A program made the translations under genes and the position numbers. A DNA stretch of 64,000 nt from NCBI RefSeq assembly GCF_010993745.1, contig NZ_WOTN01000002.1, forward strand, positions 186,001 to 250,000. Reading direction: 5' to 3'. The notes beneath the pieces were generated by a model, which worked only from the letters and a program-made list of their open reading frames with translations, was not told where the DNA came from and ran no database searches. This DNA comes from Fodinicola acaciae (GTDB lineage Bacteria > Actinomycetota > Actinomycetes > Mycobacteriales > HKI-0501). Positions 15,771 through 53,004 of the stretch are shown piece after piece (within the stretch, counting starts at the first letter, position 1; every line of letters begins with the position of its first letter).

Positions 15771-16436
15771 GTGGATGTCTATCAGGCAGTGCGGAGCAGA
15801 CGAGCGGTGCGGCGGTTCAGCGGCGAGCCGGTCGACCGCGAGGTGCTGGAGCGCGTACTCGCGACCGCGGCACGCGCGCCGTCCGGTGCCAACCTGCAGC
15901 CGTGGAAACTGTACGTCGTCACCGGTGCTCCGTTGGCAGAGCTCAAAAGACGCGCGTCCGCGCGTGCCGCCGCCGGCGATCCCGGCGACGAGCGAGAATA
16001 CGAGATGTATCCGCCGGTGCTGAAGTCGCCATATCGCGAACGGCGTTCCGCCGCGGCCGCGCAGCGATACAGCGCACTTGGAATCGCGCGGTCGGACATC
16101 GACGGCCGGCAGCGCGCCGTGGCGGCCAACTGGGACTGTTTCGGCGCGCCAGCCGCGCTTTTCTGTTACGTCGACCGCGACATGGGGCCGGCGCAGTGGG
16201 CCGACATCGGCATGTATCTGCAGACCGTGGCGTTGCTGTTACGCGCGGAAGGCCTGCACAGCTGCACGCAGATGGCATGGTCGGTCTATCGCCGTACGGT
16301 CGCCGATGTCGTGGCGCCGCCGGACAATCTCGTGCTGTTCTGCGGAATGTCGGTCGGTTTCGCGGACCGGGCCGCATCAGCCGTACGCACCGGCCGCGCG
16401 CCACTGACCGAGACCGTGACGTTTCTCGATGATTAG
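15771..16436 (+). CDS. Nitroreductase family protein
   Basis: 221-aa FMN-dependent oxidoreductase. VDVYQAVRSRRAVRRFSGEPVDREVLERVL and the RAPSGANLQPWKLYVV motif bind FMN; the GLHSCTQMAW and CGMSVGFAD segments complete the fold. Reduces nitro compounds, quinones or enones with NAD(P)H in the cytoplasm; the natural substrate is unclear. GTG start is used; the much longer open frame upstream is antisense to the sigma gene. It is transcribed divergently from the sigma gene, with 36 bases between starts, and overlaps the convergent TerD-CAP gene by four bases. Confidence 0.88.
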   Translation: MDVYQAVRSRRAVRRFSGEPVDREVLERVLATAARAPSGANLQPWKLYVVTGAPLAELKRRASARAAAGDPGDEREYEMYPPVLKSPYRERRSAAAAQRYSALGIARSDIDGRQRAVAANWDCFGAPAALFCYVDRDMGPAQWADIGMYLQTVALLLRAEGLHSCTQMAWSVYRRTVADVVAPPDNLVLFCGMSVGFADRAASAVRTGRAPLTETVTFLDD

Positions 16437-18463: not shown

Positions 18464-18486
18464 TCTCGCGTAACTCCTTCTTCCAC

Positions 18487-18620
18487 GCTCACCGCCTACC
18501 GAGTTAGCTGACGGATTCGGGCGGGGAAGAAAGTTGTCGCCCTACCGCGGCAAGCCGCGGATTCACCCCAGAAAACACGGGTCCCCGGTTCGGTACGCAT
18601 ACCGATTCGGCGGCGTTTGC
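18487..18620 (-). promoter_or_regulatory. ydaO-type c-di-AMP riboswitch
   Basis: The minus-strand leader of the NlpC/P60 gene contains the ydaO core strings GCCGCCGAAT, TGGGGTGAATCCGCGG, a CCGCGG-TTGC-CCGCGG-type hairpin region, CCGAATCCGTCAGCTAAC and TCGGTAGGCGG. The closing stem pairs the GCCGCC near 18612 with GGCGG near 18491. Binding of c-di-AMP switches off cell-wall hydrolase genes in actinobacteria (established for this class). It ends about 25 bases before the GTG start. Confidence 0.88.
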
Positions 18621-18861
18621 CGATGGTGTCGGGTGACACCTGCGAATCGACAAACCGATGCGACCCTACTCGGTGTCGCCTCACCTGTCGTATCGCGGGA
18701 TCGGATCGACGTGTTACGCACCACGCATGGTTGACCTTTTTTGGCTGGTGGGAAGGGGAGTACGTCCGGAATGACCGGACCAGAGGTCAATTTCTCCTTA
18801 ACGAAACCTTATCTGTGTGCCGGCATAATGTCGGAGAATTCACAGTGGCTGGTGCGTAAGG
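18621..18861. other. Non-coding region upstream of the riboswitch
   Basis: About 240 bases without a convincing gene; base composition is less GC-rich than the surroundings. It should hold the promoter of the riboswitch-NlpC transcript (a TAGGGT box lies near 18667 on the minus strand). On the plus strand TTAACG and CATAAT-like boxes occur near 18800-18826 but no plus-strand gene follows. Confidence 0.3.
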
Positions 18862-37254: not shown

Positions 37255-37995
37255 ATGGCCAACGTGACGACAGTCGACGTGGCGGCGGCCCGCGCCGGAG
37301 GAATGTGCAATTTGCGAGACATCGGCCAGATGTCCGCGTCGATCCGGCCCGGTGTGGTCTATCGCGGCGACGCGCCGCAGGACAACGATCCGCCGCCGCG
37401 GCTGACGCCGTGGCCGCCGCGTACGGTCGTCGACCTGCGGTCGGTCGACGAGCGGCAGCCGGTGCATCCGTTGACGGACGCCAAAATCCACCACGTCCAG
37501 CTGCTCGCCGCGGCCAATCCGCTGCTGGTCGCGCGGCACGTCGAGGAGGAAGGGCCGCAGACCCTCGCCAACCTGTACGTGTCGATGGCGCTGCACCGCG
37601 CCGAGCAGCTCGTACGCATCGCGGAAATCGTCGCGAACGAGCCTAAACCGGTGCTCATCCACTGCTCGGCCGGCAAGGACCGCACCGGCGTGGCGGTCGC
37701 GTTGCTGCTCTCCGCGGTCGGTGTGCCGCGCGCCGAGATCGTCGACGATTTCCTGCTGACAAACGACAACATCGACCAGATCACCGCGCGGATCGCGCTC
37801 TATCTCGGCGCCGACCCCAACGAGACCGCCTTCGAGGCCAACCGGCCGGCGCATGCCGTCGGAGCGGACGCGATCGGGGCCGTTCTCGACGTCTTCGAAG
37901 GACATCCCGGTGGTACGCCGAAATGGCTCACCGACAACGGTTTTTCCGATCTCGACGCGCTTCGCTCCGCATTGCTGCGTCAGCCAAGCGCATGA
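37255..37995 (+). CDS. Tyrosine-protein phosphatase (Y_phosphatase3/LipA type)
   Basis: 246-aa dual-specificity-like phosphatase. The signature P-loop HCSAGKDRTGVAV has the catalytic Cys at 137 and Arg at 143; the N-terminal NLRDIG and VYRGDAPQ segments are characteristic of the PF13350 family, which includes mycobacterial PtpB. Acts on phosphotyrosine or phosphoinositide substrates; cytoplasmic or secreted is unclear since no signal peptide is visible. Overlaps the convergent LuxR gene by 16 bases. Confidence 0.9.
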   Translation: MANVTTVDVAAARAGGMCNLRDIGQMSASIRPGVVYRGDAPQDNDPPPRLTPWPPRTVVDLRSVDERQPVHPLTDAKIHHVQLLAAANPLLVARHVEEEGPQTLANLYVSMALHRAEQLVRIAEIVANEPKPVLIHCSAGKDRTGVAVALLLSAVGVPRAEIVDDFLLTNDNIDQITARIALYLGADPNETAFEANRPAHAVGADAIGAVLDVFEGHPGGTPKWLTDNGFSDLDALRSALLRQPSA

Positions 37996-40868
37996 CGGTG
38001 GGCCAATGCGGCCGCCTCCGTACGCGTGCTGACGCTGAGCTTGGTGAGGATCCGCTGCACGTGGCTCGCGACGGTGTTGGTGGAGATGAACAACTCCACC
38101 GCGATTTCGGCGTTTGACCGGCCGTTGGCGAGTACGCGCAGGACCTGCGCCTCGCGACGGGTCAGGCCGAAGCCGGGATCGGCCGGCTCGTCCTGTTCGT
38201 CCAGTCGCGCGCGTACGGCCAGGCAGTCGATCCGCGACAGCAGTGGCGCCGCCCGCAGGTCGGCGGCGATCGACCGCGCCTCGCGCAGCCGGCGCCGCGC
38301 GCCGGATCTGTTGCTCTGCGCCAAAGCCGCCTCGGCGCCGGCGGTCAGCGCGTGCGCCAGGTCGCGGACGTGACCGAGCTCGCGCCAGGCGTCGGCCACC
38401 GCGTCCCACTCACGCAGTGTCCCTTTTCCGGCCAACGCCTCGAAAGTCGCCCGCAAAGCGACCAAAACCCGATTGTCCAAAGGAATCCGCGCGGCGAGCG
38501 CGCGCAGGGCCGCCAGCCGTTCGTCGGCCTCCCGTGCCACGTGACGGCCGCCAGCGGCGGACCGAGCGCGTTGCGTGCGAGCGCCGGCGACGACGATCAG
38601 CATCGTCTCGTACGCCGGCAGGCCGCGGTGCGGCGGATCCGCCAGCACCTCGCCGAGCAGCCGGTCGGCGAGGTCCAGGTCGCCGAGCTCGACCGCGCCG
38701 GCGATCCGGACGCACGCCGTCAGCAGCGTGATCTCCAGCCGCGGCCGGCTGTTGTCGGCGAAGGCGGCCAGCCGGTCGTCGATCTCGGCGTACGCGTCAC
38801 GGTCGCCGCGCCACGCCGTCACCAGCGCCTGCGAGCAGTGCAGCGCGGTCGCGTAGAGCCACGGCGGATCGTCGGCCAGCGCGTCCTCGATGACCTCCAG
38901 CGCCTCGTCCCAGCCGCCGAGGTCGATCAGCGCCGAGGCCCGGCAGTTGGCCAGCATGCTGCCGCGTGACCGGCCCTGGCCGAGGCGTTCGGCGGCCAGC
39001 TGTCCGGCCCTGGACAGCCCCGCCGCCTCGGCGCTGCGGCCGGCCCGGATCAGCGCGCTCGCCTCCCACTGCATGCTGGTGAGATACGTGTGGTGGTCGC
39101 CCTGCTTCTCGGCGATGCGCCGGCTTTCGCCGTAGTGGCGCAGCGCGGCGTCGACGTCCCCGTCCGAGCCCGCCACGAAGCCGAGCGCCAGCAACGCACG
39201 CGCGCGTACGTGCTCAAACGCCACCGCCTCCTCGGCGGCCTGCCTGGTCGCGGCGACATCGCCGGCGGTCACCGCGAGGAACGCGAGGCCGGCCAGCATC
39301 TCGGCGCGTACTTCGTCGGCGACACCCGGAGGCACCAGCGCGATCGCCCGCTCCAGATCGTCGCGGCCGCCGCCGTCGATGCGGTTGCGCATCCGGCCGC
39401 GCAGCTCCAGCAGCCGCGCGACGCGGACCGGCTCGGCCGCCGCGTCGAGCGCGTCGAGCGCCACGGTCGTGTGCTTGACGCCTTTGTCGGAACTGCCGGA
39501 TGCGTAGCAGGCGACGGCGGCCCGCTCGAGGACGGACACCTGAGCGGTCGGGTGTGTGGTGACTCGTGGCCACAGGTCCAACGCGCGCTCGAGCAGGTTG
39601 AGCTGCTCGTCGTAGGCGTACTGCTGGCGCGCCAGCTCGGCCGCCCGCAGCGCCGCCGGCAGGGCCAGCTCCGGTTTGCCGGCGGCGGTCCAGTGCTCGG
39701 CGAGCGCCGCCGGCTCGGTCACCACGCGCGCGTATCGCTCGTGCAGCCGCCGCCGGTCGTGCGGCAGAAGTGCCTGGTAGACGGCCTCGCGGATGAGGTC
39801 GTGCCGGATCGCGTAGCCGTCCGCCCGTACGGCCAGTTGCTCCTGGTCGACCAGCGCGCGCAGCGCGCGGTGCAGGTCGTCCTCGGACAGATCGCTCACC
39901 GTCAGCAGCAGCTCGTCACCGACCGTCGTGCCGGCGACCGCGATGACCGGCAGCAGTGCCCGTGCCTGCTCCGGAAGAGCGCTGACGCGGTCGAGCAGCA
40001 GGGTACGGAGATCGCGAAGGCGACGGGTTCGTGAGCATCGATCGGAGTCAGCGTGCGCAGCAGCTGGCTCCGGCTGAGGCGCGGAGCGGTTCCGGAGTCG
40101 AGCCATGTCGTAGCCTTGGAAGTCCTCAGTGGCGTTGAGGGCCTCAATGAACAGCGGATTGCCGCCGCTGCGCCGGTGGATGCGGCTGCTGCGCACCGGG
40201 TCGGGCGTACGGCCGCCGATCGCCGCCAGCAGCTCGGCGACGTGCGGCCGGCCGAGTGGTCCGAGCTCGACGCGTACGACGTCGCCGCGGCGGCCGAGCT
40301 CGGCGAGCAGCTGACGGCCGGGATGCTCGCCGGTGCGTACGGTGGCGAGCAGTAGCACCGACCGGTCGACCAGGTTGCGGGACAGATAGACGAAGACCTC
40401 GCGGCTGGACGCGTCGGCCCAGTGCAGGTCCTCCACCGCCAGCACCACCGGCCGGCTGTCGGCGACCCGGCCGACCAGCGTCAACAGCTCCTCAAGCAGG
40501 CGCGTACGGTCGGCCGCCGGCGCCGCCAGGCCAGGCAGCCACGCGGCCAGCGCGGAGCCGGCCAGCGGCAGCAGCGCGTCGACACGGTCGCGGCCGAGCT
40601 GGCGGAGGAGGTCACGCAGGATCGCCACGAACGGGACATACGGCGCGGCGTCCGCGCCAACCTCCAGGCAGCCGCCGGTCAGCACCAGCGGCTCGCCGGG
40701 CAGCTCGGCGGTGGCCGCCGCCAGCAGCCGTGACTTGCCGATGCCAGCCTCGCCGGAGACCAGCACGGTGACCGCCTGTCCCTGCCGCGCGCGTTCGTAC
40801 GCCGCGCGGATGGCGGCACGTTCGGTCGTACGGCCGACCAGCACCGGGCTGACCGCGGTCGGCGGCAT
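37980..40868 (-). CDS. LAL-type LuxR transcriptional regulator with AAA ATPase domain
   Basis: 962-aa MalT/LAL-like regulator. Walker A is VSGEAGIGKSRLL (about 38-50) and Walker B is VVLAVEDLHWAD (about 143-154); a long TPR-like helical middle follows; the C-terminal LuxR helix-turn-helix is LTRREAQVLRVLANGRSNAEIAVELFISTNTVASHV. It is an ATP-dependent activator responding to an unknown inducer, often of secondary metabolism or sugar use. A segment at about residues 245-285 (plus-strand 40015-40135) has atypical composition, is rich in Arg, Pro and Ala, and reads better in another frame. Confidence 0.88.
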   Translation of the reverse strand: MPPTAVSPVLVGRTTERAAIRAAYERARQGQAVTVLVSGEAGIGKSRLLAAATAELPGEPLVLTGGCLEVGADAAPYVPFVAILRDLLRQLGRDRVDALLPLAGSALAAWLPGLAAPAADRTRLLEELLTLVGRVADSRPVVLAVEDLHWADASSREVFVYLSRNLVDRSVLLLATVRTGEHPGRQLLAELGRRGDVVRVELGPLGRPHVAELLAAIGGRTPDPVRSSRIHRRSGGNPLFIEALNATEDFQGYDMARLRNRSAPQPEPAAAHADSDRCSRTRRLRDLRTLLLDRVSALPEQARALLPVIAVAGTTVGDELLLTVSDLSEDDLHRALRALVDQEQLAVRADGYAIRHDLIREAVYQALLPHDRRRLHERYARVVTEPAALAEHWTAAGKPELALPAALRAAELARQQYAYDEQLNLLERALDLWPRVTTHPTAQVSVLERAAVACYASGSSDKGVKHTTVALDALDAAAEPVRVARLLELRGRMRNRIDGGGRDDLERAIALVPPGVADEVRAEMLAGLAFLAVTAGDVAATRQAAEEAVAFEHVRARALLALGFVAGSDGDVDAALRHYGESRRIAEKQGDHHTYLTSMQWEASALIRAGRSAEAAGLSRAGQLAAERLGQGRSRGSMLANCRASALIDLGGWDEALEVIEDALADDPPWLYATALHCSQALVTAWRGDRDAYAEIDDRLAAFADNSRPRLEITLLTACVRIAGAVELGDLDLADRLLGEVLADPPHRGLPAYETMLIVVAGARTQRARSAAGGRHVAREADERLAALRALAARIPLDNRVLVALRATFEALAGKGTLREWDAVADAWRELGHVRDLAHALTAGAEAALAQSNRSGARRRLREARSIAADLRAAPLLSRIDCLAVRARLDEQDEPADPGFGLTRREAQVLRVLANGRSNAEIAVELFISTNTVASHVQRILTKLSVSTRTEAAALAHRHALG

Positions 40869-41678: not shown

Positions 41679-41706
41679 TTGACAGCGCAACCGGCGCTGT
41701 TACATT
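41679..41706 (+). promoter_or_regulatory. Promoter of the polysaccharide-degradation operon
   Basis: TTGACA (41679-41684), 16-base spacer containing AGCGC-AACCG-GCGCT, and TACATT (41701-41706), 66 bases before the GH105 start. The spacer dyad may be an operator. No other promoter is evident before the end of the operon at 53004. Confidence 0.6.
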
Positions 41707-41771
41707 CCGGGCACAGATCCTATCTCTCCCTTTCCACTCTCGGTTTCTGCCGTCGCTGACTGAGGAGGAAC

Positions 41772-42929
41772 ATGAACCGGATCTACTCCTGGATCGCCGC
41801 GGTGTTGCTGACCGCGTCGGCGTTGCTGAGCGTGCCGGCTTCGCTTTCCGCGCGCGAAAAACCAGCTCCGGCGGACTGGTCGGTGGCGATGGTCGAGTCG
41901 ACCATGGCGCGCTACACGCCGAGCACGATCGGCGGCTGGTCGTATCCGGTCGGCCTCTATCTCTACGGCCAGTATCTGGTCTACCAGCGTACGCACGACC
42001 CGCGTTACCTGAGCTTCGTCAAACGTTGGGTCGACCGGTTCGTCGACTCCTCGGGAAACATCGGGCAGAGCTTCAACAACCTGGACAGCATGCTCGCCGG
42101 CCGGCTGCTGGTCATCATGTACGACGAGACGCACCAGGCGAAATACCGCACGGCGGCAACGAAAATCCGGAACCGGCTCAAGACCTATCCGCGTACGTCC
42201 GACGGCGGCTTCTGGCACGCGACCTCGACCAGCCGGCAGCACCAGCTGTGGGCCGACGGCGCGTTCATGGTGAATCCGTTCCTCGCCGAATACGGCCGGG
42301 AGTTCGGTGACACGGCCTACGCCTACGACGAGGTCACCAAGCAGCTGGCCGTCTACGGTGGTCATCTGCAGGTGGCTAACGGGCTGCTGAGACACGCGTA
42401 CGACGAGTCCAAGACGCAGAGCTGGGCCGATCCGAAGACCGGACTCGCTCCGGAGCACTGGTGTCGCGCCATCGGCTGGTATGCGATGGCGACGGTCAAC
42501 ATCCTCGACATCGTTCCGGCCAACCAGCCGCGGCGTGCGGAGTTGTTGAGCATTCTGGCCAAACTCGCGGCCGGCCTGGAGCATTACCAGGATCCGGCGA
42601 CCGGACGATGGTTCCAGGTCGTCGACAAAGGCAACCGCTCCGACAACTGGACCGAGACCTCGTGTTCCAGCATGTTCGCCTTCGCATTGTCGCGAGCGGT
42701 CCAGCAGCACTACATCGACCCGCATTATGACGCCGTCGCCAAGCGCGCTTATCAAGGCGTACTCGCCAAAATCTCGCTCGGCAGCGACGGCCGTACGAAC
42801 CTGACCGACATCAGCGTCGGCACCAATGTCGGTGATTACGCCTACTACCTCGCGCGTGACCGGGCCACCAACGACTTCCACGGCCTCGGGGCCTTCCTGA
42901 TCATGTCCGAGCAACTCAGGGGACGGTGA
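41772..42929 (+). CDS. Secreted GH105 unsaturated glycuronyl hydrolase (YteR/YesR-like)
   Basis: 385-aa protein with a Sec signal (IAAVLLTASALLSVPASLSA). The (alpha/alpha)6 barrel shows family motifs FNNLDSMLAGRLLVIMY, HQLWADGAFMVNPF, EHWCRAIGWYAMA and DNWTETSCSSMFAFAL. GH105 enzymes hydrate the unsaturated galacturonyl end left by pectin or rhamnogalacturonan lyases. First gene of the operon; its stop overlaps the next GTG. Secretion is less usual than cytoplasmic location in bacilli and fits extracellular breakdown here. Confidence 0.88.
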   Translation: MNRIYSWIAAVLLTASALLSVPASLSAREKPAPADWSVAMVESTMARYTPSTIGGWSYPVGLYLYGQYLVYQRTHDPRYLSFVKRWVDRFVDSSGNIGQSFNNLDSMLAGRLLVIMYDETHQAKYRTAATKIRNRLKTYPRTSDGGFWHATSTSRQHQLWADGAFMVNPFLAEYGREFGDTAYAYDEVTKQLAVYGGHLQVANGLLRHAYDESKTQSWADPKTGLAPEHWCRAIGWYAMATVNILDIVPANQPRRAELLSILAKLAAGLEHYQDPATGRWFQVVDKGNRSDNWTETSCSSMFAFALSRAVQQHYIDPHYDAVAKRAYQGVLAKISLGSDGRTNLTDISVGTNVGDYAYYLARDRATNDFHGLGAFLIMSEQLRGR

Positions 42930-43704
42930 CGATGGTATTCTCTCGGCGGACGGTTCTCGGCGGCATCGTCGGCGCCGCCGCGACAGCCGCGATTCCAACT
43001 GCCGCGCCGACGTGGACGCTGCGGTGGTCGCCGGAGGCCAGCAGGGACGGGCTGAAGGCCTTCGAGACGGTCGAGGACGACCGGGCCAACTCGCATCCGG
43101 CCGGCCATCCGCACATTTTCGTGGAAGGCAACAACTTCCGCTTCAACATGCACACCGTCGACCGGGACACCAGCACCGACCGGCAGCGCCAGGAGGTCAC
43201 CGGCAACCGGACCGGCGGCTCGTACCTGCAGTGGAAACCCGGCCAGACCTGGCGTGTCACGTACTCGATGTTCATCCCCACCTCGCTGAAGGCGACGACC
43301 ACCTTCACGCACATCATGCAGATGAAACAGCCGGGCACCGGCTCGGCGCCGATCATCGTCCAGTCATTGCGCCGAAACGGCAGCACGCCGACGATCGAGC
43401 TGAAGCTTTCGAGAAGAACATCCTGGTCGGCCACACCGATCTGGCCCCGCTGCAAAACAAGTGGATCGACGTCGACTTCCAGCTGAAGATCGGCAACGGC
43501 ACCGCCGGGTCCGTACGGTGGATCGTCAAGGACGGCGGCAAAACCGTGGTCGACGCGAGCAAGACCGGTGTGGACACGTTCCTGGAGGACCGGGTCCGGC
43601 CGAAATGGGGGATCTACCGGTCGCTCGGCGACACTTCCGGTTCCCTGCAGAACTGCTATCTGCTTCTCACCAACATGCGCGGCTACCAACTCACCGGAGC
43701 CTGA
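42926..43704 (+). pseudogene. Polysaccharide lyase-like secreted protein, interrupted by one frameshift
   Basis: The frame from GTG 42926 encodes a Tat-like signal (FSRRTVLGGIVGAAATAAIP) and a jelly-roll lyase part (WSPEASRDGLKAFETVEDD; GNNFRFNMHTVDRD; YLQWKPGQTWRVTYSMFIP) to about 43405, then turns to nonsense and stops at 43486. The second frame continues perfectly as AFEKNILVGHTDLAPLQNKW, then WIVKDGGKTVVDASKTGVDTFLEDRV and ends at 43704. One extra G in GAAGCTTTC (GAAGGCTTTC) restores a protein of about 259 residues resembling PF14099 (heparinase I-like) lyases. GTG overlaps the GH105 stop. Either a true lesion or an assembly error. Confidence 0.8.
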
Positions 43705-43705
43705 C

Positions 43706-45214
43706 GTGAAAAGAGTGTGTGTCCTCGTCCTGTTCGCGCTGTCGCTGGTTGTCGGCCTGGCGATGCCGACCGTCTCGTACGCGGCGGTGAACCTCAACGT
43801 CCGCGACTACGGTGCCACCGGCAACGGATCCACCAATGACACGACCGCGATCAACAACGCGATCACCGCGGCCAACGCGGCGACCGGCGGCGGGATCGTA
43901 CGTTTTCCGGCCGGCACCTACAAATCGGCCAACTCGATCCACATGAAGAGCAACGTGACGCTGCAGCTCGACTCCGGCGCCACCATCGTCGGATCCAGCG
44001 CCGACAACTACGACGCGGCCGAATCCAACCCCAACGACAACTACCAGGACTACGGCCACAGCCATTTCCATGACGCGATGATCTGGGGCAACAACCTCAC
44101 CAACATCGGTTTCGTCGGCTCCGGCACCATCGACGGCGGCGGCAACCTGATCACCGGCAACCCGAAGTCCGGCGAGGCCGACAAGATCATCTCGCTGACC
44201 CGCTGCGACGGCCTGACCGTCAGCGGCATCAAGCTGCGCCGCGGCGGCCATTTCGCGATGCTCATCAACGACTGCAAAAACGTCACGTCGGACCACCTGA
44301 CGATCGACACGGCCAGCGACCGCGACGGCTGGAACGTGATCAGCACGACCAATGTCACGATCACCAACGCCAACATCGCCGCCAACGACGACGCGTTGGT
44401 GTTCAAGAGCGACTACGCGCTCGGTGCCAAGCTGCCAAACGGAAACGTCACGGTGACCGACTCGCACCTGTCGGCGAAGTGCTGCAACGCCCTGATGTTC
44501 GGCTCGGAGACCTGCGGTGATTTCACCGGCTATCACTTCCAGCACATCGACATCACCGGAGCGCAGAAGTCCGGTCTCGGCATGGTTTCCATGGATGGCG
44601 CCAACATCTCCGACGTGCATTACCGCGACATCACGATGACCGGCGTACGGTCGCCGATCATGCAGAAGATCGGCACCCGAAAACGATGTGGCAACAACCC
44701 CGGCGTCGGCCACATCAGCAACATCACGTACGACAACATCACCGCGACCGGGGTGAGCCCGTCGTTCAGCCCGACACTGTGGGGTGAGTCCGGCGGCAAC
44801 CGGATCAGCGGCGTGACCTTCACCAACGTCAACATCACCGTGCCCGGCGGCAACGGCACGATGGGGACCGGTGTGCCGAGCAACGACCCCAAGGACTACA
44901 ACCCCAAGAGCATCGGCACCCGGCCGGCTTTCGGTTGGTACGTGCACAACGCCAACAACATCAGATTTGTCAACAGTTCCGTACGTTTCGCGTCCAACGA
45001 CGGTCGTCCGGCGGTCATCGCCAACGGCGCGAGCGCGCTGACTTTCGACCATTTCGTCGCGCAGCGCGGAAGCAACAGCCCCAACGACCTCAACTTCCAG
45101 TCGGTGACCGGATATTGCGTACGCGCCAGCACCAACACCGGTGGCGGTGCGCTGAGGATCAGTGCGACCGGTTCGTCGCAGTCGTGCGTCGACAACGTGG
45201 ATGGTCGGCAATGA
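43706..45214 (+). CDS. Secreted GH28-like polygalacturonase / right-handed beta-helix protein
   Basis: 502-aa protein with a signal peptide (VLFALSLVVGLAMPTVSYA). The pectate-lyase-3-like N-terminus (VNLNVRDYGATGNGSTNDTTAINNAI) opens a beta helix with GH28-like active-site stretches: SDRDGWNVI and the Asp pair at 228-229 (ANDDALVFKSD). The GH28 His/Arg motifs are not in canonical form (IMQKIGTRKRCG stands where RIK is usual), so the substrate may differ from homogalacturonan; rhamnogalacturonan is possible. GTG start one base after the lyase stop. Confidence 0.82.
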   Translation: MKRVCVLVLFALSLVVGLAMPTVSYAAVNLNVRDYGATGNGSTNDTTAINNAITAANAATGGGIVRFPAGTYKSANSIHMKSNVTLQLDSGATIVGSSADNYDAAESNPNDNYQDYGHSHFHDAMIWGNNLTNIGFVGSGTIDGGGNLITGNPKSGEADKIISLTRCDGLTVSGIKLRRGGHFAMLINDCKNVTSDHLTIDTASDRDGWNVISTTNVTITNANIAANDDALVFKSDYALGAKLPNGNVTVTDSHLSAKCCNALMFGSETCGDFTGYHFQHIDITGAQKSGLGMVSMDGANISDVHYRDITMTGVRSPIMQKIGTRKRCGNNPGVGHISNITYDNITATGVSPSFSPTLWGESGGNRISGVTFTNVNITVPGGNGTMGTGVPSNDPKDYNPKSIGTRPAFGWYVHNANNIRFVNSSVRFASNDGRPAVIANGASALTFDHFVAQRGSNSPNDLNFQSVTGYCVRASTNTGGGALRISATGSSQSCVDNVDGRQ

Positions 45215-47016
45215 TAAGGAAAACTCTCGTCGTTCTCGTCGCACTGGTCCTGGTCCTGGTGCCTGGACCGGCAAAGGCCGACCTGCAGAACCCACGGCAG
45301 GCCTTCCTGCGCGGCTCGGTGTCCGGACTTTTCCTGCACTGGGGTGAGCGTACGGCGCCGGCGCACACCAACTGCGCGGCGTGGGAGAAGGACGTCAACA
45401 GCGGTGGCTGGACGCCGGACTACTGGGTCAAGGAGGCACAGAAGCTGCACGCGCAGTATCTGGTGCTGGCCACCTTCCACAGCCGGCTCGGTTACGCGCG
45501 GCCGTGGCCGTCGAAGATTCCCGGCAGCTGCAGCACAAAACGCGACTTTCTCGGCGAGCTCATCGCCGCGGCGAAAAGCCGAGGACTGCGGGTCATCCTC
45601 TACATGACCGACGATCCGCAGTGGCACAACGAAGGCGGCCACGAGTGGCTCAACTCCGCCGCGTACTCGTCGTACAAAGGCCACAACGTCGACCTGACCA
45701 CCCGCGACGGGTTCGGCGAGTTTTCCTACGACAACTTCTTCGAGGTCATGGACCGCTATCCGGACCTCGGTGGCTTCTGGATCGACAACGACAACGCGTA
45801 CTGGGAAAGCCACAACCTCTACGCGCAGATCTACCAGAAACGGCCGAACTACACGCTCAGCAACAACAACGAAGACACCCCGATCATGGACATGATCAGC
45901 AACGAGCAGAAAACCGGCATGACGCCGTCGTACGACTATCCGCAGGCCATCTACACGGCCGCGCCGCGGCTGATCGAGGCGGACTTCAAGCTGCCATCGA
46001 CCGGTGCCTGGTGGTATGACGGCTCGAACCCGTCGGTCGACCGCACGCTCACGCTCGGCCGGCTGGTCACCAACGCCGGCTCGTCGGTGAAGGCGCTGAT
46101 GGCCGAAACCGCCCAGGTCAACGGAAAGTTCCCGAGCAACCAGGAAGCGTTCAACAACTTCGTGAACGGCTGGATCGCGCCGATCTGGGATTCGTTGCAC
46201 GGCACCGAAGGCGGCGGCTACCTGTACGGCGGCCTGCAGCCCGGCGCCTGGAACGACGGCGCGTACGGCGTCACCACGATCAGCAAGACCGATCCGGACC
46301 TGCACTACATCCACGTCATCACCAAGCCGTCGGGCAGCACGTTGCGGGTGCGGGACAACGGATATCGCGTGACCGGTGTGACGAATCCGCGTACCGGCGC
46401 GGCGATCGCGTACAGCCAGGCCGGTGGTTCGTTGACACTGACAGGTTTGAGTGGCTGGGACCCCTACGACACGGTCTTCAAGGTCACCACCAACGGCCGC
46501 GTCGGCATCTATCCGCCGTCCACGTACACGATGAGCGCGAGTGCGTCGGCCGGCGGTCATCCGGCCTCGGCCGCCGCCGACGGCGACTATCTGTCCTACT
46601 GGGACAGCAACAAAACCACGCCGGTGTCGCTGCGCTTCGACCTCGGCTCGGCGAAGCGGATCCAGTATCTCGGCATCAACCAGCGCGAGGATTCGGTGAG
46701 CTACAGCCGATCCAGCACCGAGCAGTCCGCGCGCATCAAGGACTATCGGGTATATGTGAGCGCCGACGGCACGAACTGGGGAAATCCGGTGAGGTCCGGG
46801 ACGCTGCCGAGTCGTCGTGGCGTACAGTTCATCGACCTGCCGGCGACGACCGCGCGACACATACGGCTTGAGGTCGTCGACACGTACGCGGCCTCCAGCG
46901 ACACGACGCGTTACAAGAGACTGCGCGTCGACGAGGCGTGGATCGGCTCGGACTATGCCACCAGCGGGGGAGGCGGAGGTCCGCAGCCGGTCCGCCAGGA
47001 GGTGAGCGCGCCGTGA
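45211..47016 (+). CDS. Secreted GH29-like alpha-L-fucosidase with F5/8-type (CBM32-like) domain
   Basis: 601-aa protein with a signal peptide (TLVVLVALVLVLVPGPAKA). The barrel has FLHWGERTAPAHTNCAAWE, YLVLATFHSRLG and a likely nucleophile Asp at 192 in GGFWIDNDNAYW, the position of the WFDG Asp of fucosidases. Residues about 445-590 form a galactose-binding-like domain (ASAGGHPASAAADGDYLSYWDSN; VSLRFDLGSAKRIQYLGINQRED; RHIRLEVVDTYA). It would remove fucose or a similar deoxy sugar from side chains. ATG overlaps the previous stop as ATGA. Confidence 0.8.
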   Translation: MIRKTLVVLVALVLVLVPGPAKADLQNPRQAFLRGSVSGLFLHWGERTAPAHTNCAAWEKDVNSGGWTPDYWVKEAQKLHAQYLVLATFHSRLGYARPWPSKIPGSCSTKRDFLGELIAAAKSRGLRVILYMTDDPQWHNEGGHEWLNSAAYSSYKGHNVDLTTRDGFGEFSYDNFFEVMDRYPDLGGFWIDNDNAYWESHNLYAQIYQKRPNYTLSNNNEDTPIMDMISNEQKTGMTPSYDYPQAIYTAAPRLIEADFKLPSTGAWWYDGSNPSVDRTLTLGRLVTNAGSSVKALMAETAQVNGKFPSNQEAFNNFVNGWIAPIWDSLHGTEGGGYLYGGLQPGAWNDGAYGVTTISKTDPDLHYIHVITKPSGSTLRVRDNGYRVTGVTNPRTGAAIAYSQAGGSLTLTGLSGWDPYDTVFKVTTNGRVGIYPPSTYTMSASASAGGHPASAAADGDYLSYWDSNKTTPVSLRFDLGSAKRIQYLGINQREDSVSYSRSSTEQSARIKDYRVYVSADGTNWGNPVRSGTLPSRRGVQFIDLPATTARHIRLEVVDTYAASSDTTRYKRLRVDEAWIGSDYATSGGGGGPQPVRQEVSAP

Positions 47017-48353
47017 ACCGCCTGATCACCGCGGTCGTTCTGCTGGCCGCATTGCTTGTCGCGCCGGCAAAAGTGGCCGCCTCCGACAACGGACAGTCGA
47101 TCCGGCCGGCGATGGGCTGGAGCAGCTGGAGCTTCGTCCGTCGCTGGCCGACCGAGACGAAAATCAAACAGCAGGCGCTCGCGCTGAAAAACAGCGGGCT
47201 GCCCGCGCACGGTTTCGTCTACGTCAACCTGGACGACTTCTACCAGAAATGCGACGCCAACGGTTTCCAGGTCGACGGCAACGGCCGCTGGCTGGTCGAT
47301 CCGGCGAAGTTTCCCAACGGCATCAAGGCGTTGGCCGACTACGTCCATGGACTCGGCCTGAAGTTCGGTTTCTACGTGACGCCGGGGATCGCCGAGAACG
47401 CGGTCACCAGGAACACGCCGGTCGCCGGCACGCCGTATCACGCCAAGGACATCGCGGACACCAGCCGTACGCAGAAAAACTACAACTGCAAGCACATGTA
47501 TCGGCTCAACTACAGCAGTCCCGGCGCGCAGGCGTTCGTCGACTCGTGGGCCGCGCAGTATGCGTCGTGGGGGGTCGACTACCTGAAGATCGACGGGGTC
47601 GACGCCACGACGATCGACGACGTCAAAGCATGGGACAAGGCGCTGCGCAGGACCGGCCGGCCGATCAATTTCGCGTTGTCCAACAACCTGCCGATCGCCA
47701 ACGCCTCGACCTGGCGGCAATACGCGAACAGCTGGCGTACGCAGGGAGATGTCGAGTGCTATTGCGGTCCTGGCCCGAATGGCAGCGGCTATCCGCTGAC
47801 CGACTGGAAGCACGTCTCCGGCCGGTTCAACTCCGCGGCGAGCTGGCAGCAGTGGGCCGGCCCCGGCGGCTGGAACGACCTGGACTCGTTGCAGCTCGGC
47901 AACGGCGACAAAGTCGGCCTGACCGCCGACCAACGCCGTACGCATTTCACATTGTGGGCCATGGCCGCCTCGCCCCTGTTGCTCGGCACCGACCTGACCG
48001 CGTTGAACAACACCGACATGGCGATGCTGACCAACGACCGGATCATCGCCGTCGACCAGGACGGCGTGGCCGCGGCGCGGATCGTCAACAGTGGCGTCAA
48101 ACAGGTCTGGCGCAAGAAAGAAGCCAACGGCGACTACGTCGTGGCGCTGTTCAACACCGGCACGTCCGGAAACTCGACGGTCAGCGTCGACTGGTCGCAG
48201 GTCGGTTTCAGCGGCAGCGCGGACGTGACCGACCTGTGGTCGGGAAAGCACGTCGGCACCGTGACCAACTCCTACAGCGCGACCCTGCGACCCGGTGAGA
48301 CGCGGCTGATCCGGGCCAGGCCCGGCAGCGCAACGAATCTGGCCCTTTCCTGA
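47013..48353 (+). CDS. Secreted GH27 alpha-galactosidase
   Basis: 446-aa protein, signal peptide LITAVVLLAALLVAPAKVAA. GH27 motifs are present: PAMGWSSWSFV, YVNLDDFYQK, the nucleophile Asp in YLKIDGVDA (about 202) and the acid/base Asp in GGWNDLDSLQLGN; the C-terminal beta domain follows (LFNTGTSGNSTVSVDWSQVG). Removes alpha-linked galactose, or arabinopyranose, from galactomannan or pectin side chains. GTG start overlaps the fucosidase stop. Confidence 0.88.
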   Translation: MNRLITAVVLLAALLVAPAKVAASDNGQSIRPAMGWSSWSFVRRWPTETKIKQQALALKNSGLPAHGFVYVNLDDFYQKCDANGFQVDGNGRWLVDPAKFPNGIKALADYVHGLGLKFGFYVTPGIAENAVTRNTPVAGTPYHAKDIADTSRTQKNYNCKHMYRLNYSSPGAQAFVDSWAAQYASWGVDYLKIDGVDATTIDDVKAWDKALRRTGRPINFALSNNLPIANASTWRQYANSWRTQGDVECYCGPGPNGSGYPLTDWKHVSGRFNSAASWQQWAGPGGWNDLDSLQLGNGDKVGLTADQRRTHFTLWAMAASPLLLGTDLTALNNTDMAMLTNDRIIAVDQDGVAAARIVNSGVKQVWRKKEANGDYVVALFNTGTSGNSTVSVDWSQVGFSGSADVTDLWSGKHVGTVTNSYSATLRPGETRLIRARPGSATNLALS

Positions 48354-48372
48354 CCCTGAAGGGATTCACCTC

Positions 48373-49338
48373 ATGCGCAGCTTTCTGCGGACCGTCATGG
48401 CCGGCGCACTCGCGGCCCTGGTCCTGGCGCCAACGCCGTCGTACGCGGCACCGGCCGGCATCCAGGCCGCACCGTACGAGTATTTCGGCTGGGGCAATCC
48501 GCAAAGTCCGGCCTCGGTGATGTCGGCGACCGGCGTGAAGTGGTTCACGCTGGCCTTCATCCTGTCCAAGGGCACCTGCAGTCCGGCCTGGGACGGCAGC
48601 CGCCCGCTGACTGGCGGCTCGGATCAGTCGAATATCAACGCGATCCGCGCCAAAGGCGGCGATGTCGTCGTTTCCTTCGGTGGCTGGAGTGGCAACAAGC
48701 TCGGCCAGTCGTGCTCGAGCGCCGGCGCTTTGGCCGGTGCGTACCAAAAAGTGATCAACGCCTACGGGCTGAAAGCGATCGACATCGACATCGAGGCCGG
48801 CGAGTTCACCAGCTCGACCGTCCGGCAACGGGTCGTGGACGCGCTGAAAACCGTACGCGCCAACAATCCCGGCCTGATCACCTACCTGACCTTCGGGACG
48901 ACGCCGAGCGGTCCGGACGGCAATGGCGCGGATCTGATCAAGCGTGGCGCCAAGTCCGGCCTGGCCAACGACGGCTGGATCATCATGCCGTTCGACTTCG
49001 GCGGCCACAGCGGCTCGATGGGGGCGGCGACCGTCAGTGCCCTGGAAGGCCTGAAGAAGACGGTGAAAAGTGCTTACGGCTACAGTGACGGCGACGCGTA
49101 CCGGCACATCGGCCTGTCGTCGATGAACGGCAAGACCGACGAGTCGGACGAGACGGTCAGCACCGGCGACTTCAACACCATGCTCGCGTACGCGCAACAG
49201 CACCACATCGCGCGTTTCGCGTTCTGGTCGATCAACCGTGACCGGCAGTGCGGCTCCGGCAGCGACGGCGACTCGTGCAGCGGGATTTCGCAGTCGGCCT
49301 ACGCGTTCACCAAGATCGTCGTGAAATACCAGGGATAG
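48373..49338 (+). CDS. Secreted GH18 chitinase-like protein
   Basis: 321-aa protein with a signal peptide (AGALAALVLAPTPSYA). The TIM-barrel shows VKWFTLAFIL, GGDVVVSFGGWSG and the catalytic DxDxE signature as AIDIDIEAGEF (acid Glu at 141). It belongs to the bacterial chitinase group seen alone or with CBMs in actinomycetes. Its presence within a pectin-oriented operon suggests attack on mixed plant and fungal material. ATG start 19 bases after the GH27 stop. Confidence 0.87.
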   Translation: MRSFLRTVMAGALAALVLAPTPSYAAPAGIQAAPYEYFGWGNPQSPASVMSATGVKWFTLAFILSKGTCSPAWDGSRPLTGGSDQSNINAIRAKGGDVVVSFGGWSGNKLGQSCSSAGALAGAYQKVINAYGLKAIDIDIEAGEFTSSTVRQRVVDALKTVRANNPGLITYLTFGTTPSGPDGNGADLIKRGAKSGLANDGWIIMPFDFGGHSGSMGAATVSALEGLKKTVKSAYGYSDGDAYRHIGLSSMNGKTDESDETVSTGDFNTMLAYAQQHHIARFAFWSINRDRQCGSGSDGDSCSGISQSAYAFTKIVVKYQG

Positions 49339-49342
49339 CGCC

Positions 49343-50566
49343 ATGAAAATCATCGGAGCACTCGCGCTCAGCCTGGTCCTGCTGCCGGCCGGCGCGACGC
49401 ACGCGGCCCCGGCCGAGGTCACGGTGCCGTTTGGCAGTCACCAACGGCCATACGTCTCCGGGACGCTCAAGCCGACCGGCGACCAGGCGGCCATCGACCA
49501 GACCGTGATCACTCGCTACAACCAGTGGAAGTCCGCGTTTCTCAAGCACAACTGTGGAAACGGCTGGGTCGAGACGTACTCGCCGGACGCCGACCATCCA
49601 TACGTCGCCGAGGGCCAGGGTTACGGCATGGTGATCACCGCGCTGATGGCCGGCGCGGATCCGGACGCCAAAGCCAACTTCGACGGCATGGTCAAGTTCG
49701 TGCTGGCGCATCCGTCGGTGAACAACCACAATCTGCTGGCCGCCGAACAGAACAGCTCGTGCCGCAGTGTCGACGGCTCCGACTCGGCGACCGACGGCGA
49801 CCTCGACGTGGCCTATGGCCTGCTGCTGGCCGATGTGCAGTGGGGAAGCGGAGGGACTTACAACTACAAGGATCTGGCCGTCAAACACATCAACGCGATC
49901 AAGGCGAGCGAGGTCAACTCGTCCACGCATCTCATGTTGCTCGGCGACTGGTCCGACTCCGGCGAGTCGCATCACAACATCACGCGATCGTCGGATTTCC
50001 TGATCGACCACTTCCGCGCCTTCCGGAAGGCGACCGGCGACAGCGCCTGGGACACGATCCGCGCGGCACACCAGAAACTGATCACCTCGCAGCAGGCGAA
50101 GTACGCGCCGAACACCGGACTGCTGGCCGATTTCATCGTCAACACCAACACAACTCCGAAGCCGGCCTCCGGCCAGGTGCTGGAGGGACCGCACGACGGC
50201 GACTACTCGTGGAACGCCTGCCGTGATCCGTGGCGGATCGGCTCCGACGCGGTCACCAGTGGTGACAGCGCTTCCGCCGCGTCCGCGCGAAAACTCAACA
50301 GCTGGATCAAAAGCAAGACCAGTGGCAACGCCAACTCGATCCAGACCGGCTACAAGCTCAGCGGCTCGGTTTCCGAGAGTGGCTCGGACATGGCCTACAC
50401 CGCACCGTTCGCGGTGGCCGCGCTGACCGACGCCGGCTCGCAGGCCTGGCTGGACGCGCTGTGGCACAAGCTGGCGACCACGTCGATCGACTCTTCGCTC
50501 TATTACGGCGGAAGCGTGCAGCTCCAGTCGATGATCGTCGTCTCAGGCAACTACTGGGTCCCCTGA
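49343..50566 (+). CDS. Secreted GH8 endoglucanase/xylanase/chitosanase
   Basis: 407-aa protein with a signal peptide (IIGALALSLVLLPAGATHA). GH8 features: YVAEGQGYGMVITALMAG with the acid Glu at 90, and ATDGDLDVAYGLLLADVQWG with an Asp at 151; YSWNACRDPWRIGSDAV follows. The family cleaves cellulose, xylan or chitosan by inversion; chitosan would suit the neighbouring GH18, which is inference. Four bases after the GH18 stop. Confidence 0.9.
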   Translation: MKIIGALALSLVLLPAGATHAAPAEVTVPFGSHQRPYVSGTLKPTGDQAAIDQTVITRYNQWKSAFLKHNCGNGWVETYSPDADHPYVAEGQGYGMVITALMAGADPDAKANFDGMVKFVLAHPSVNNHNLLAAEQNSSCRSVDGSDSATDGDLDVAYGLLLADVQWGSGGTYNYKDLAVKHINAIKASEVNSSTHLMLLGDWSDSGESHHNITRSSDFLIDHFRAFRKATGDSAWDTIRAAHQKLITSQQAKYAPNTGLLADFIVNTNTTPKPASGQVLEGPHDGDYSWNACRDPWRIGSDAVTSGDSASAASARKLNSWIKSKTSGNANSIQTGYKLSGSVSESGSDMAYTAPFAVAALTDAGSQAWLDALWHKLATTSIDSSLYYGGSVQLQSMIVVSGNYWVP

Positions 50567-50580
50567 CCGTGAGGACAAAG

Positions 50581-53004
50581 ATGAGAAGACTCGCCAGAAT
50601 CGCGGCCGTGTCGGTCGCCGCGCTGACCGCCGCGGGGTTGTCGGCGCCGGCGACGGCGGCGCCGACCCGGTATGAGGCGGAGGCCGGCAGTTTCGCTCAG
50701 GCGGTGGTGGAATCCAACCACCAGGGCTTCTCCGGCGCCGGTTTTGTCAACACCGACAACGTCGCCGGCGCGTACGTCCAGTTCGCGGTCAACGCCGCCT
50801 CCGCCGGCACGGCGACCGTCACCATCGGATATTCCAACGGCACCACGGTCAACCGGCCCGGTGACGTCGCGGTCAACGGCGTCGTCGTCTCGGCCAACCG
50901 GGCGTTCGCCGGCACCGGGAGCTGGGACACCTGGGCCACCTCCACGCTCTCGGTGCCGGTGAAGGCCGGCGCCAACACCGTACGACTGACCTCGACCACC
51001 GCCGAAGGCCTGCCAAACCTGGACTATCTCGATGTCGAGGCGGCCGCGCAGAGCGCCGACTACCAGGCCGAAGACGCGACGATCTCGCAGGGCACGGTGG
51101 CCAACAACCACGCCGGCTTCACCGGATCCGGCTTCGTCGACTACACCAACATCGCCGGATCGTACGTACAGTTCACTGTGAACGCGGCGGCGGCCGGCAG
51201 CTCGTCGCTGACTTTCCGTTACGCCAACGGCACGACGGTCGACCGACCGATGGACATCAGCGTCAACGGCACCGTCGTCTCGTCCGGCCTTTCCTTCCCT
51301 GGCACGACAAACTGGGACACCTGGGCCACCAAGGCGGTCAACGCGCGGCTGAACGCCGGCAACAACACGATCAGGGCGACCGCGACGACCGCCAACGGGG
51401 GCCCCAACCTCGACAGGCTGACCGTCAGCGGCGCCGCCGACAGCCAGCCGCCGACCACGCCCGGCACGACTTCCTGTTCGGACATCGGCGAAAACCAGCT
51501 GACGCTGCACTGGGGTGCCGCCACCGACAACGTCGGTGTGGTCGCGTACGACATCTACGAGCACGGCAACAAACTGGCCGAGGCGGCCGGAAACGCGACC
51601 TCGCAGGTGCTCAACGGCCTGACACCGAACACGACTTACACGCTCGCGGTGACCGCACGCGACGCGGCCGGCAACGCCTCGCCGGCCACCACTCCGTTGC
51701 AGTGCAAGACACTTCCGAGCAGCGACACCACACCGCCGAGCGCGCCGGAAAACCTGGCGCATTCCAACGTCACCGCCAACAGTGTCAAGCTGACCTGGTC
51801 GGCGTCGACGGACAACCGCGGTGTCACGTCTTACGACGTACGCAGCGGGACCACGGTTTACCAGACGGTGACCGGAAATCCGCCGGCGACCTCCACCACG
51901 CTGACCGGTTTGGCGTGCAACAGTCCATATTCGCTCAACGTCGTCGCGCACGACGCGGCCGGCAACGTGTCGGCGCAGAGCAACGCGGACTCGTTCACCA
52001 CACAGTCGTGCAGCACCGACGGCGGCGTGCCGTCGTCGATCACCACGATCTCCACCGGCTGGTCGATCCCGTGGGGGACCTACTGGATGCCGGACGGCCA
52101 GACCGCGCTGGTCACCGAGCGGGACAGCTTCAAGGTGTTCAAAGTGACGCCGTCCGGCGCGAAAACGCAGGTGGGATCGGTCCCCAACGCGGTCACCACC
52201 AACGGGGAAGGCGGCCTGCTCGGGGTCGCGGTCGACCCGGCCTGGTCGACCAACCATTACGTCTATTTCATGCACACCGCGTCCGAAGGCAACCGGATCG
52301 TACGCATGACCTACGACGGTGCGTCGTTGTCGGGCTACAAGATTTTGTTGCAGGGGATCAAGAAGAACCAGTATCACAATGGCGGCCGGCTGCTTTTCGG
52401 GCCGGACGGCTATCTTTACGCCAGCACCGGCGAGGCCCAGACGCCGGATCTGGCGCAGGACAAGAACTCGCTGAACGGCAAGATCCTGCGGCTGACCACT
52501 GACGGCAAGCCGGCTCCCGGCAACCCGTTCGGCAATTACGTCTACAGCTATGGTCACCGCAATCCGCAGGGTCTGGCCTTCGACCGCAACGGCCGGCTGT
52601 GGGAGGCCGAGTTCGGCAACTCGAAATACGACGAGCTCAACCTGATCAAGCCGGGCGCCAACTACGGATGGCCGACCTGCGAAGGAAACTGCGGCACCAC
52701 CGGCATGACGAACCCGAAGGCGACCTGGCCGGTGTCGCAGGCCTCGCCGAGCGGAATCGCGATCGTCCGCAACGTCGTCTACATGGCGGCTCTGCGCGGC
52801 GAGCGGATGTGGCGGATCCCGATCAACGGTGACTCGGAAAGTGTCGGCACGCCAACGGCGTACTACGTCGGCACGTACGGGCGGCTGCGTACGGTCACCA
52901 AGGTCCCCGGTGCCGACCAGTTGTGGCTGTCGACGACGAACGCCGACAACAATGGCAACCAACCCGACGGCTCCGACAAGATTTTCCGGGTGACCATCGC
53001 ATAA
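50581..53004 (+). CDS. Secreted CBM-CBM-FN3-FN3-glucose/sorbosone dehydrogenase
   Basis: 807-aa protein with a signal peptide (IAAVSVAALTAAGLSAPATA). Two CBM35/CBM6-like modules (YEAEAGSFAQAVVESNHQGFSGAGFVN; YQAEDATISQGTVANNHAGFTGSGFVD) are about 43% identical by eye and span residues about 28-285. Two fibronectin III modules follow (to about 475). The rest is a GSDH-type beta propeller (GGLLGVAVDPAW; HNGGRLLFGPDGYLYASTGEA; SYGHRNPQGLAFD; GANYGWP), usually PQQ-dependent sugar oxidation. It probably oxidises released sugars or polymer ends while bound to cell wall. ATG after GAGGACAAAG; GTG 50569 is the alternative. Last gene of the operon. Confidence 0.87.
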   Translation: MRRLARIAAVSVAALTAAGLSAPATAAPTRYEAEAGSFAQAVVESNHQGFSGAGFVNTDNVAGAYVQFAVNAASAGTATVTIGYSNGTTVNRPGDVAVNGVVVSANRAFAGTGSWDTWATSTLSVPVKAGANTVRLTSTTAEGLPNLDYLDVEAAAQSADYQAEDATISQGTVANNHAGFTGSGFVDYTNIAGSYVQFTVNAAAAGSSSLTFRYANGTTVDRPMDISVNGTVVSSGLSFPGTTNWDTWATKAVNARLNAGNNTIRATATTANGGPNLDRLTVSGAADSQPPTTPGTTSCSDIGENQLTLHWGAATDNVGVVAYDIYEHGNKLAEAAGNATSQVLNGLTPNTTYTLAVTARDAAGNASPATTPLQCKTLPSSDTTPPSAPENLAHSNVTANSVKLTWSASTDNRGVTSYDVRSGTTVYQTVTGNPPATSTTLTGLACNSPYSLNVVAHDAAGNVSAQSNADSFTTQSCSTDGGVPSSITTISTGWSIPWGTYWMPDGQTALVTERDSFKVFKVTPSGAKTQVGSVPNAVTTNGEGGLLGVAVDPAWSTNHYVYFMHTASEGNRIVRMTYDGASLSGYKILLQGIKKNQYHNGGRLLFGPDGYLYASTGEAQTPDLAQDKNSLNGKILRLTTDGKPAPGNPFGNYVYSYGHRNPQGLAFDRNGRLWEAEFGNSKYDELNLIKPGANYGWPTCEGNCGTTGMTNPKATWPVSQASPSGIAIVRNVVYMAALRGERMWRIPINGDSESVGTPTAYYVGTYGRLRTVTKVPGADQLWLSTTNADNNGNQPDGSDKIFRVTIA

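Follow-up and report, generated by a model that had tools for sequence, protein, structure and literature searches.

Gene content and organization of the locus

We analyzed a 64,000-nucleotide stretch of the genome of the soil actinomycete Fodinicola acaciae (here, the window), in which positions 41772 to 53004 hold eight genes, all on the + strand (Table 1). Three of the joints between them are 4-base overlaps and the remainder are gaps of 1 to 19 bases; these coordinates confirm the tight same-strand packing described in an initial sequence-only reading. That reading also gave all eight products signal peptides, which is plausible in eight of eight by a heuristic (not SignalP), each N-terminus having a hydrophobic core and an AxA-type cut. 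The operon is flanked upstream by PNPOx-like and LuxR-AAA genes and downstream by genes for an fn3 protein, an aminotransferase, and an alpha/beta hydrolase. All eight of its genes encode enzymes and the closest ABC permeases found in the window lie 18 kb off, consistent with the earlier statement that the operon has no regulator or transporter of its own. We infer that the eight genes are cotranscribed. The single promoter proposed for them is not supported: we found one sigma-70-like site where 1.4 are expected in shuffled sequences.

Table 1. Features of the operon and its upstream region in window coordinates
Feature	Position	Strand	Evidence
Sigma-70-like TTGACA-16-TACATT match, 5' of GH105	41679-41706	+	not above chance
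GH105 unsaturated uronyl hydrolase, YteR-like, signal peptide	41772-42929	+	PF07470 302 bits
Polysaccharide lyase, predicted Tat export, frameshifted	42926-43704	+	frames 42926-43486 and 43012-43704; intact relatives
GH28, rhamnogalacturonidase-like beta-helix enzyme	43706-45214	+	PF00295 78.6 bits
GH29-like barrel + F5/8C (CBM32-like) domain	45211-47016	+	PF01120 45.6 bits, PF00754 59.5 bits
GH27, alpha-galactosidase or beta-L-arabinopyranosidase	47013-48353	+	PF16499 129 bits
GH18, exochitinase-like, accessory module	48373-49338	+	phmmer 9buf Exochitinase 1 E 7e-51
GH8, glucanase/chitosanase-like, accessory module	49343-50566	+	PF01270 85.7 bits
CBM35-CBM35-fn3-fn3-GSDH, PQQ-type aldose dehydrogenase, predicted secreted	50581-53004	+	PF07995 227 bits

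Enzyme families and binding modules

All enzyme specificities given here are predicted from homology. Among solved structures, the GH105 protein is closest to YteR (1nc5, E 1.9e-77), then to the YteR-like 4wu0, with weaker matches to other GH105 structures (E at least 1e-24). Its score of 264 bits to YteR, compared with at most 88 bits for GH105 proteins outside the YteR group, places it in the YteR subfamily. The GH28 protein scores 301 bits against the NCBIfam model of the BT4146 rhamnogalacturonidase, which has a cut-off of 500; judged by this score, it is related to BT4146-type rhamnogalacturonidases and is not a member of that family by the curated cut-off. PF01120 matches the GH29-like protein above the Pfam cut-off, yet only over profile positions 90 to 254 of 345. 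For the GH27 protein, phmmer gave 182 bits to the beta-L-arabinopyranosidase 4nx0 versus 175 and 171 bits to alpha-galactosidases. The GH18 protein falls below its own Pfam cut-off and is clear by phmmer to the exochitinase 9buf, and the GH8 protein scores 348 bits to the glucanase 5xd0 and 226 bits to the chitosanase 1v5c. Elsewhere in the genome, outside the operon, one AA10 (LPMO) gene lies next to another GH18 gene.

The lyase gene reported by the sequence-only reading is present, but not as one open frame: a one-base frame change near position 43405 splits it in the Fodinicola acaciae sequence, whereas 43 of the 44 relatives with a match carry it in a single frame. Because of this frameshift, the first degradation step may be broken in this genome. 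The lyase N-terminus carries a twin-arginine motif (SRRTVL). A sequence search against the sequences of solved structures returned no match for the lyase, and against PF14099 the F. feengrottensis copy scored 29.6 bits, just under the cut-off of 29.9. An AlphaFold model of that copy reached a pLDDT of 78 (an earlier model from three sequences, with a pLDDT of 47, was set aside). Its top fold match is the Trichoderma glucuronan lyase 2zzj, which we take to be a PL20 enzyme (Z 19.2, rmsd 2.5 over 198 residues, 14% identity), followed by heparin lyase I (Z 17.5). The predicted jelly-roll fold of the lyase is thus closest to that of a PL20-type glucuronan lyase.

The GSDH protein matches PF07995 at 227 bits (cut-off 25), together with two CBM_35 and two fn3 domains, and its closest solved structure is 3das (324 bits, E 1e-95). 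Aligned with sGDH chains, it retains the His and GHRNPQG motifs. The residues that presumably contact PQQ (His, the Arg-Asn of GHRNPQG, and two Arg) are all matched, the last two Arg aligning only in a weak second stretch, and the enzyme probably uses PQQ.

Within the window operon, CBM35 modules occur only on the GSDH protein, and they are closest to 2vzp, the CBM35 of the Amycolatopsis exo-beta-D-glucosaminidase. Uronate-binding CBM35s carry a signature of region A Trp, region C Asn, and region D2 His (PMC9843283). Both window modules retain all three residues, and the second alone also has the Arg within RYANGTT. The S. albiflavescens operon bears CBM6/CBM35-type modules on all seven nonlyase enzymes, and those on GH18, GH8, and GSDH are 77 to 94% identical in the closest pairs. 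Modules up to 94% identical on different enzymes argue for one target, and the near-identical CBM35s make it unlikely that GH18 and GH8 are mere passengers. A different role for the CBM35s would be to anchor the enzymes on the surface of the producing cell, through uronic acids of its wall, instead of on the substrate; the enzymes could then have different polymers as substrates. Reportedly, Montanier and colleagues proposed such anchoring in 2009 for the Amycolatopsis exo-glucosaminidase whose CBM35 is the closest one here. We consider this role unlikely for the operon, as it offers no reason for GH105, GH28, and the lyase to be conserved together and as only the GSDH carries CBM35s in the window.

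Conservation across relatives and linkage to PQQ synthesis

We collected 78 related loci by similarity to the GH29-like protein; because they were gathered in this way and are mostly from Streptomyces, the counts given here are not independent. Of the 43 loci that have five or more of the eight genes, 41 retain gene order and strand. Three Streptomyces operons, those of Streptomyces sp. WM6378, S. olivochromogenes A53, and S. albiflavescens, match the window operon in all eight families, in their order, and in strand; dozens more loci have subsets. The composition, earlier called unusual, is therefore not a one-off: the operon is a recurrent modular actinomycete unit, and order conservation across genera gives good support to its description as a coinherited, exported polysaccharide-degradation operon. 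A unique or chance assembly of genes is ruled out by the conserved order. The co-localized, coconserved CAZyme genes expected of a Bacteroidetes-type or Gram-positive polysaccharide-utilization locus are present, and the dedicated importer expected of one (SusC/D, ABC, MFS, or PTS) is missing.

The three Streptomyces operons differ from the window in having an intact lyase and preceding pqq genes; in addition, S. albiflavescens has extra CBM35 modules on most enzymes, and S. olivochromogenes A53 has CBM35 matches beside several. Fodinicola feengrottensis HKI 0501 has six genes in the window's order at 71 to 90% identity, whereas its locus lacks GH18 and GH8, has other flanks, and contains several frame breaks in the assembly. 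GH18 and GH8, found in 20 and 11 of the 78 loci, respectively, are accessory. Their insertion at random into the Fodinicola acaciae genome is ruled out, since they occupy the same place in Streptomyces. The GH28/GH105/GH29-like trio is common to Streptomyces and Amycolatopsis loci. The GH29-like protein is 82 to 83% identical to that of F. feengrottensis and 82% identical to that of Streptomyces melanogenes, the operon flanks are not shared between the two Fodinicola species, and the window GSDH falls within a mostly Streptomyces clade of a tree with unresolved deep forks. Horizontal transfer of the operon may be considered.

PQQ synthesis genes beside the operon, which the sequence-only reading missed along with the shared CBM35 modules, are recognizable by pqqC in 22 of the 78 loci, 20 of which also have GSDH. 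Where pqqE is present (23 loci), it lies 5' of GH105 in the same orientation in 22. The Streptomyces sp. WM6378 locus has PqqB, C, D, and E above the NCBIfam cut-offs, and a PqqA-like E-x3-Y peptide was found in all eight loci examined. Searches of the openly accessible literature turned up no account of pqq genes linked to this operon; in that literature, the linkage and the uronic-acid-binding domains that its enzymes share appear undescribed so far.

PqqC was found in neither Fodinicola genome by a search that was positive in one other genome and in pqq-bearing Streptomyces, and 15 of the 17 checked Streptomycetaceae that have the GSDH operon without an adjacent pqqC have no PqqC anywhere in the genome. 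These absences would be expected if the GSDH were PQQ-independent or a decaying relic in PQQ nonproducers. We regard this as improbable, given that its catalytic domain is 77 to 90% identical to the window copy in most carriers and keeps the PQQ-contact motifs, which is not relic-like behavior. With PqqC missing, the Fodinicola GSDH would depend on scavenged PQQ.

Candidate target and comparison with known systems

Our main reading, which we put at slightly better than even (roughly 0.55), is that the operon encodes an exported enzyme set against one putative uronic-acid-bearing heteropolysaccharide, coupled to PQQ-dependent oxidation of the released sugars. The Tat-exported lyase would cut at uronic acids, leaving 4,5-unsaturated uronyl ends for GH105 to take off, and the rhamnogalacturonidase-like GH28, the GH29-like enzyme, and GH27 would strip backbone and side-chain sugars. 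The accessory GH18/GH8 cassette may cut associated chains of the GlcNAc/GlcN or glucan type. Uronate-binding-type CBM35 modules would keep the enzymes on the target, where the CBM35-tethered GSDH would oxidize free aldoses with PQQ. Many Streptomyces would produce this PQQ from the genes directly upstream of the operon, and the Fodinicola acaciae enzyme would take it from neighbors.

Plant pectin, specifically rhamnogalacturonan I with arabinogalactan side chains, is a possible if less probable target, with GH18 and GH8 as unrelated passengers. The YteR-like GH105, the GH28 nearest the BT4146 rhamnogalacturonidase model, and the GH27 close to a beta-L-arabinopyranosidase fit pectin, as does the widespread trio with optional GH18 and GH8. 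Set against this are the glucuronan-lyase-like fold, the close match of the S. albiflavescens GH18 and GH8 modules to the CBM35 of its GSDH, and the absence of PL1 and PL3 from the window genome and from Streptomyces sp. WM6378, both with all eight genes; rhamnogalacturonan I lyase-domain matches are marginal in these two genomes (28 to 29 bits) and clear in the other carriers tested. The earlier assignment to pectin is therefore half supported, standing for GH105 and GH28 and not for the lyase fold and the PL1/PL3 content.

Besides chitin and chitosan, the walls of Mucoromycota contain fucose- and galactose-bearing glucuronan or mucoran. A glucuronic-acid-rich fungal wall of this type as the target would account for the lyase fold, the co-occurrence in one operon of enzymes like fucosidases, galactosidases, exochitinases, and glucanases or chitosanases, a CBM35 most similar to that of an exo-beta-D-glucosaminidase, and the missing PL1 and PL3 in Fodinicola acaciae. 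We think it less likely than not, as GH28 has no obvious role there, GH105 is closest to a rhamnogalacturonan enzyme, and fold similarity does not fix the lyase substrate. Counting against the single target of our main reading, GH28 suits pectin and GH18 does not, so that the full set of eight genes fits no one polymer known; the target may be pectic or of the glucuronan/fungal-wall kind.

More tentatively, PQQ synthesis, a CBM35-tethered PQQ dehydrogenase, and CBM35-sharing enzymes for a uronate polymer might form one oxidative glycan-degradation unit of actinomycetes, in which lineages such as Fodinicola keep the dehydrogenase without PqqC and rely on their neighbors' PQQ. If so, PQQ, mostly treated in connection with gluconic acid and phosphate solubilization, would gain a link to the breakdown of polysaccharides outside the cell in Streptomyces and its relatives. 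Cofactor sharing would become testable, with many carriers keeping a PQQ-type enzyme without PQQ synthesis, and the operon would supply a defined set of enzymes acting on a polymer with uronic acids.

The fungal AA12 PQQ pyranose dehydrogenase CcPDH is, like GSDH, a secreted sugar dehydrogenase of a PQQ family joined to a carbohydrate-binding module (PMC4133262, PMC5960967). The two differ in their added domains, a cytochrome b domain and a CBM1 in CcPDH and two CBM35 and two fn3 domains in GSDH, in which Pfam found no cytochrome domain. Bacillus subtilis YteR and the Bacteroides rhamnogalacturonan-I enzymes are relatives of the window GH105 and GH28; compared with those systems, the window operon lacks a transporter and regulator and has GH18, GH8, and GSDH in addition.

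Organization and setting of the operon

We found the eight enzyme genes on the + strand where the sequence-only reading had placed them, with corrected starts (see table). Three joints overlap by 4 bases and the remaining gaps span 1 to 19 bases, spacing that would suit translational coupling. A basic check of hydropathy and AxA motifs gives all eight proteins export-signal-like N-termini, in agreement with the signal peptides proposed earlier, and that of the lyase carries a twin-arginine motif. The proposed single promoter is not shown: one promoter-like match came up, at 41679, and shuffled sequence is expected to give 1.4. The operon is real, conserved, modular, and exported.

Operon genes and a divergent regulator (window coordinates)
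Feature	Position	Strand	Basis or remark
Large AAA-LuxR regulator	37980-40868	-	Divergent from operon, one PNPOx-like gene between
GH105	41772-42929	+	Pfam/NCBIfam
Lyase	42926-43704	+	Frameshifted; two frames
GH28	43706-45214	+	Pfam/NCBIfam
GH29-like	45211-47016	+	Pfam/NCBIfam
GH27	47013-48353	+	Pfam/NCBIfam
GH18	48373-49338	+	Pfam/NCBIfam
GH8	49343-50566	+	Pfam/NCBIfam
GSDH	50581-53004	+	Pfam/NCBIfam

The operon indeed has no regulator or transporter of its own, and the nearest ABC permeases found lie 18 kb off. Upstream come the PNPOx-like gene and the AAA-LuxR regulator, which has no counterpart within 34 kb around the Fodinicola feengrottensis operon; on the downstream side lie genes for an fn3 protein and for an aminotransferase. 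The cluster in many Streptomyces loci is flanked by aldo/keto-reductase-like and acyl-CoA-ligase-like genes (names read from sequence), so the absence of a transporter seems usual there too. Elsewhere in the window, a separate sugar-uptake region (1978-12191, -) holds a GH116 family enzyme, with genes for an ABC permease and a solute-binding protein close by. The gene of an NlpC/P60 cell-wall hydrolase (17492-18463, -) has a c-di-AMP (ydaO) riboswitch immediately upstream (18479-18622, -) and is followed by a TerD-CAP fusion (16433-17383).

Conservation across relatives

The actinomycete genome carrying the window comprises 8.86 Mb in four contigs and is 100% complete; F. feengrottensis HKI 0501 is its sole same-genus relative among the genomes searched. 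A GH29-like alignment searched against 84,980 bacterial and archaeal genomes gave 268 relatives; we retained the 78 best distinct loci, each with flanks of at most 10 kb, and mapping the eight proteins on them shows a modular cluster. GH105 occurs in 67 of these 78 loci, GH28 in 57, GSDH in 47, GH27 and the lyase in 44 each, GH18 in 20, and GH8 in 11; because sampling was based on the GH29-like protein and Streptomyces dominate, these counts describe a set of relatives rather than independent events. Three Streptomyces loci have all eight genes in identical order, and order and strand are retained in 41 of the 43 loci with at least five. The F. feengrottensis operon differs in having six of the eight, without GH18 and GH8 in that locus. 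Amycolatopsis loci (L083, L086, L089, L092, L095-L097, L103, L104, L111-L113) are arranged differently, in the order GH28, GH105 (on the opposite strand), GH29-like, with GSDH and lyase absent. At G000:C4:1132281-1134215 in the window genome, a gene closely homologous to the operon GH18 (56% identity) has an AA10 LPMO gene beside it on the other strand, and C13 of F. feengrottensis has this GH18/LPMO neighbourhood too.

The lyase and the target polymer

In the window, the lyase gene is split between two open frames that join near 43405. Its F. feengrottensis counterpart, in contrast, is a single 271-residue frame that aligns across the break, where the window is one base shorter, and 43 of the 44 relatives with a match have a long single-frame one (L074 is partial only). 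The break is either a true mutation or a sequencing error. A structure predicted from a 29-sequence alignment (pLDDT 78) gave Trichoderma reesei glucuronan lyase as top fold match (Foldseek and VIA-align; Z 19.2, rmsd 2.5 over 198 residues). VIA-align placed heparin lyase I next (Z 17.5), along with further uronate lyases among which GH131 and GH16 jelly rolls were interspersed. The model thus supports a uronate lyase, and the fold leaves the substrate unfixed.

The pectin part of the earlier reading stands only in part. A YteR-like GH105 and a GH28 nearest to the BT4146 rhamnogalacturonidase, yet below that model's cut-off, speak for pectin. The pectate lyase complement argues against a simple pectin locus: searches that covered PL1, PL3, and the RGI-lyase domain gave neither of the first two, and marginal hits to the third, in the window genome and in Streptomyces sp. 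WM6378, each of which carries the full set of eight. In the other genomes searched, three Streptomyces and the Amycolatopsis, the hits are clear. Within that scope, the operon lyase would be the obvious source of unsaturated ends in both genomes, a role that fits a putative glucuronic-acid-containing target. Walls of the Mucoromycota type, one candidate, contain glucuronic acid with fucose, galactose, chitin, and chitosan, and would leave GH28 alone unexplained. Neither reading accounts for all of the operon genes.

Modules of the CBM6/CBM35 type, one or two per enzyme, occur in Streptomyces albiflavescens on GH105, GH28, GH29-like, GH27, GH18, GH8, and GSDH. The closest pairs (GH18_N, GH8_N2, GSDH_N2) share 77 to 94% identity, GSDH_N1 is near 50%, and the GH105 module, under its Pfam cut-off, is 46 to 58% identical to the others. 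One module type on enzymes of seven families argues for a single target or a single anchoring surface. Two CBM35 modules are present on the window GSDH; both contain the Trp, Asn, and His of uronate-binding CBM35 (positions listed in PMC9843283), and the second is nearest to an exo-beta-D-glucosaminidase CBM35, then to 2w47, a CBM35 from a clostridial rhamnogalacturonan acetylesterase (PMC9843283).

Linkage to PQQ synthesis

The operon GSDH is a member of the PQQ aldose dehydrogenase family, and the His and GHRNPQG motifs of soluble glucose dehydrogenase are conserved in it. Some of the Streptomyces loci have pqqB, pqqC, pqqD, and pqqE immediately upstream of GH105 (Pfam and NCBIfam), with all four products over NCBIfam cut-offs in WM6378; of the 23 loci with pqqE, 22 have it upstream of GH105 and on the same strand, and a PqqA-like E-x3-Y short peptide (ETALEVTAY or ETALEVTGY) precedes the pqq genes in all eight loci examined. 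GSDH is present in 20 of the 22 loci with pqqC (22/78 overall) versus 27 of the 56 without.

Protein and family-model searches found no PqqC in either Fodinicola genome; the same searches were positive in G054, a genome of another genus in the same order, where pqqC and pqqE stand next to a GSDH gene in divergent orientation (G054:C18:290402-293839), a PQQ-GSDH pairing independent of the operon. We checked 17 Streptomycetaceae whose operon includes GSDH but has no pqqC next to it: 15 had no PqqC in the genome examined and two had it elsewhere; with adjacent pqqC, the search was positive in 5 of 5 genomes checked. Many carriers thus retain a closely similar GSDH catalytic domain without cofactor synthesis, and in the simplest reading they would scavenge PQQ.
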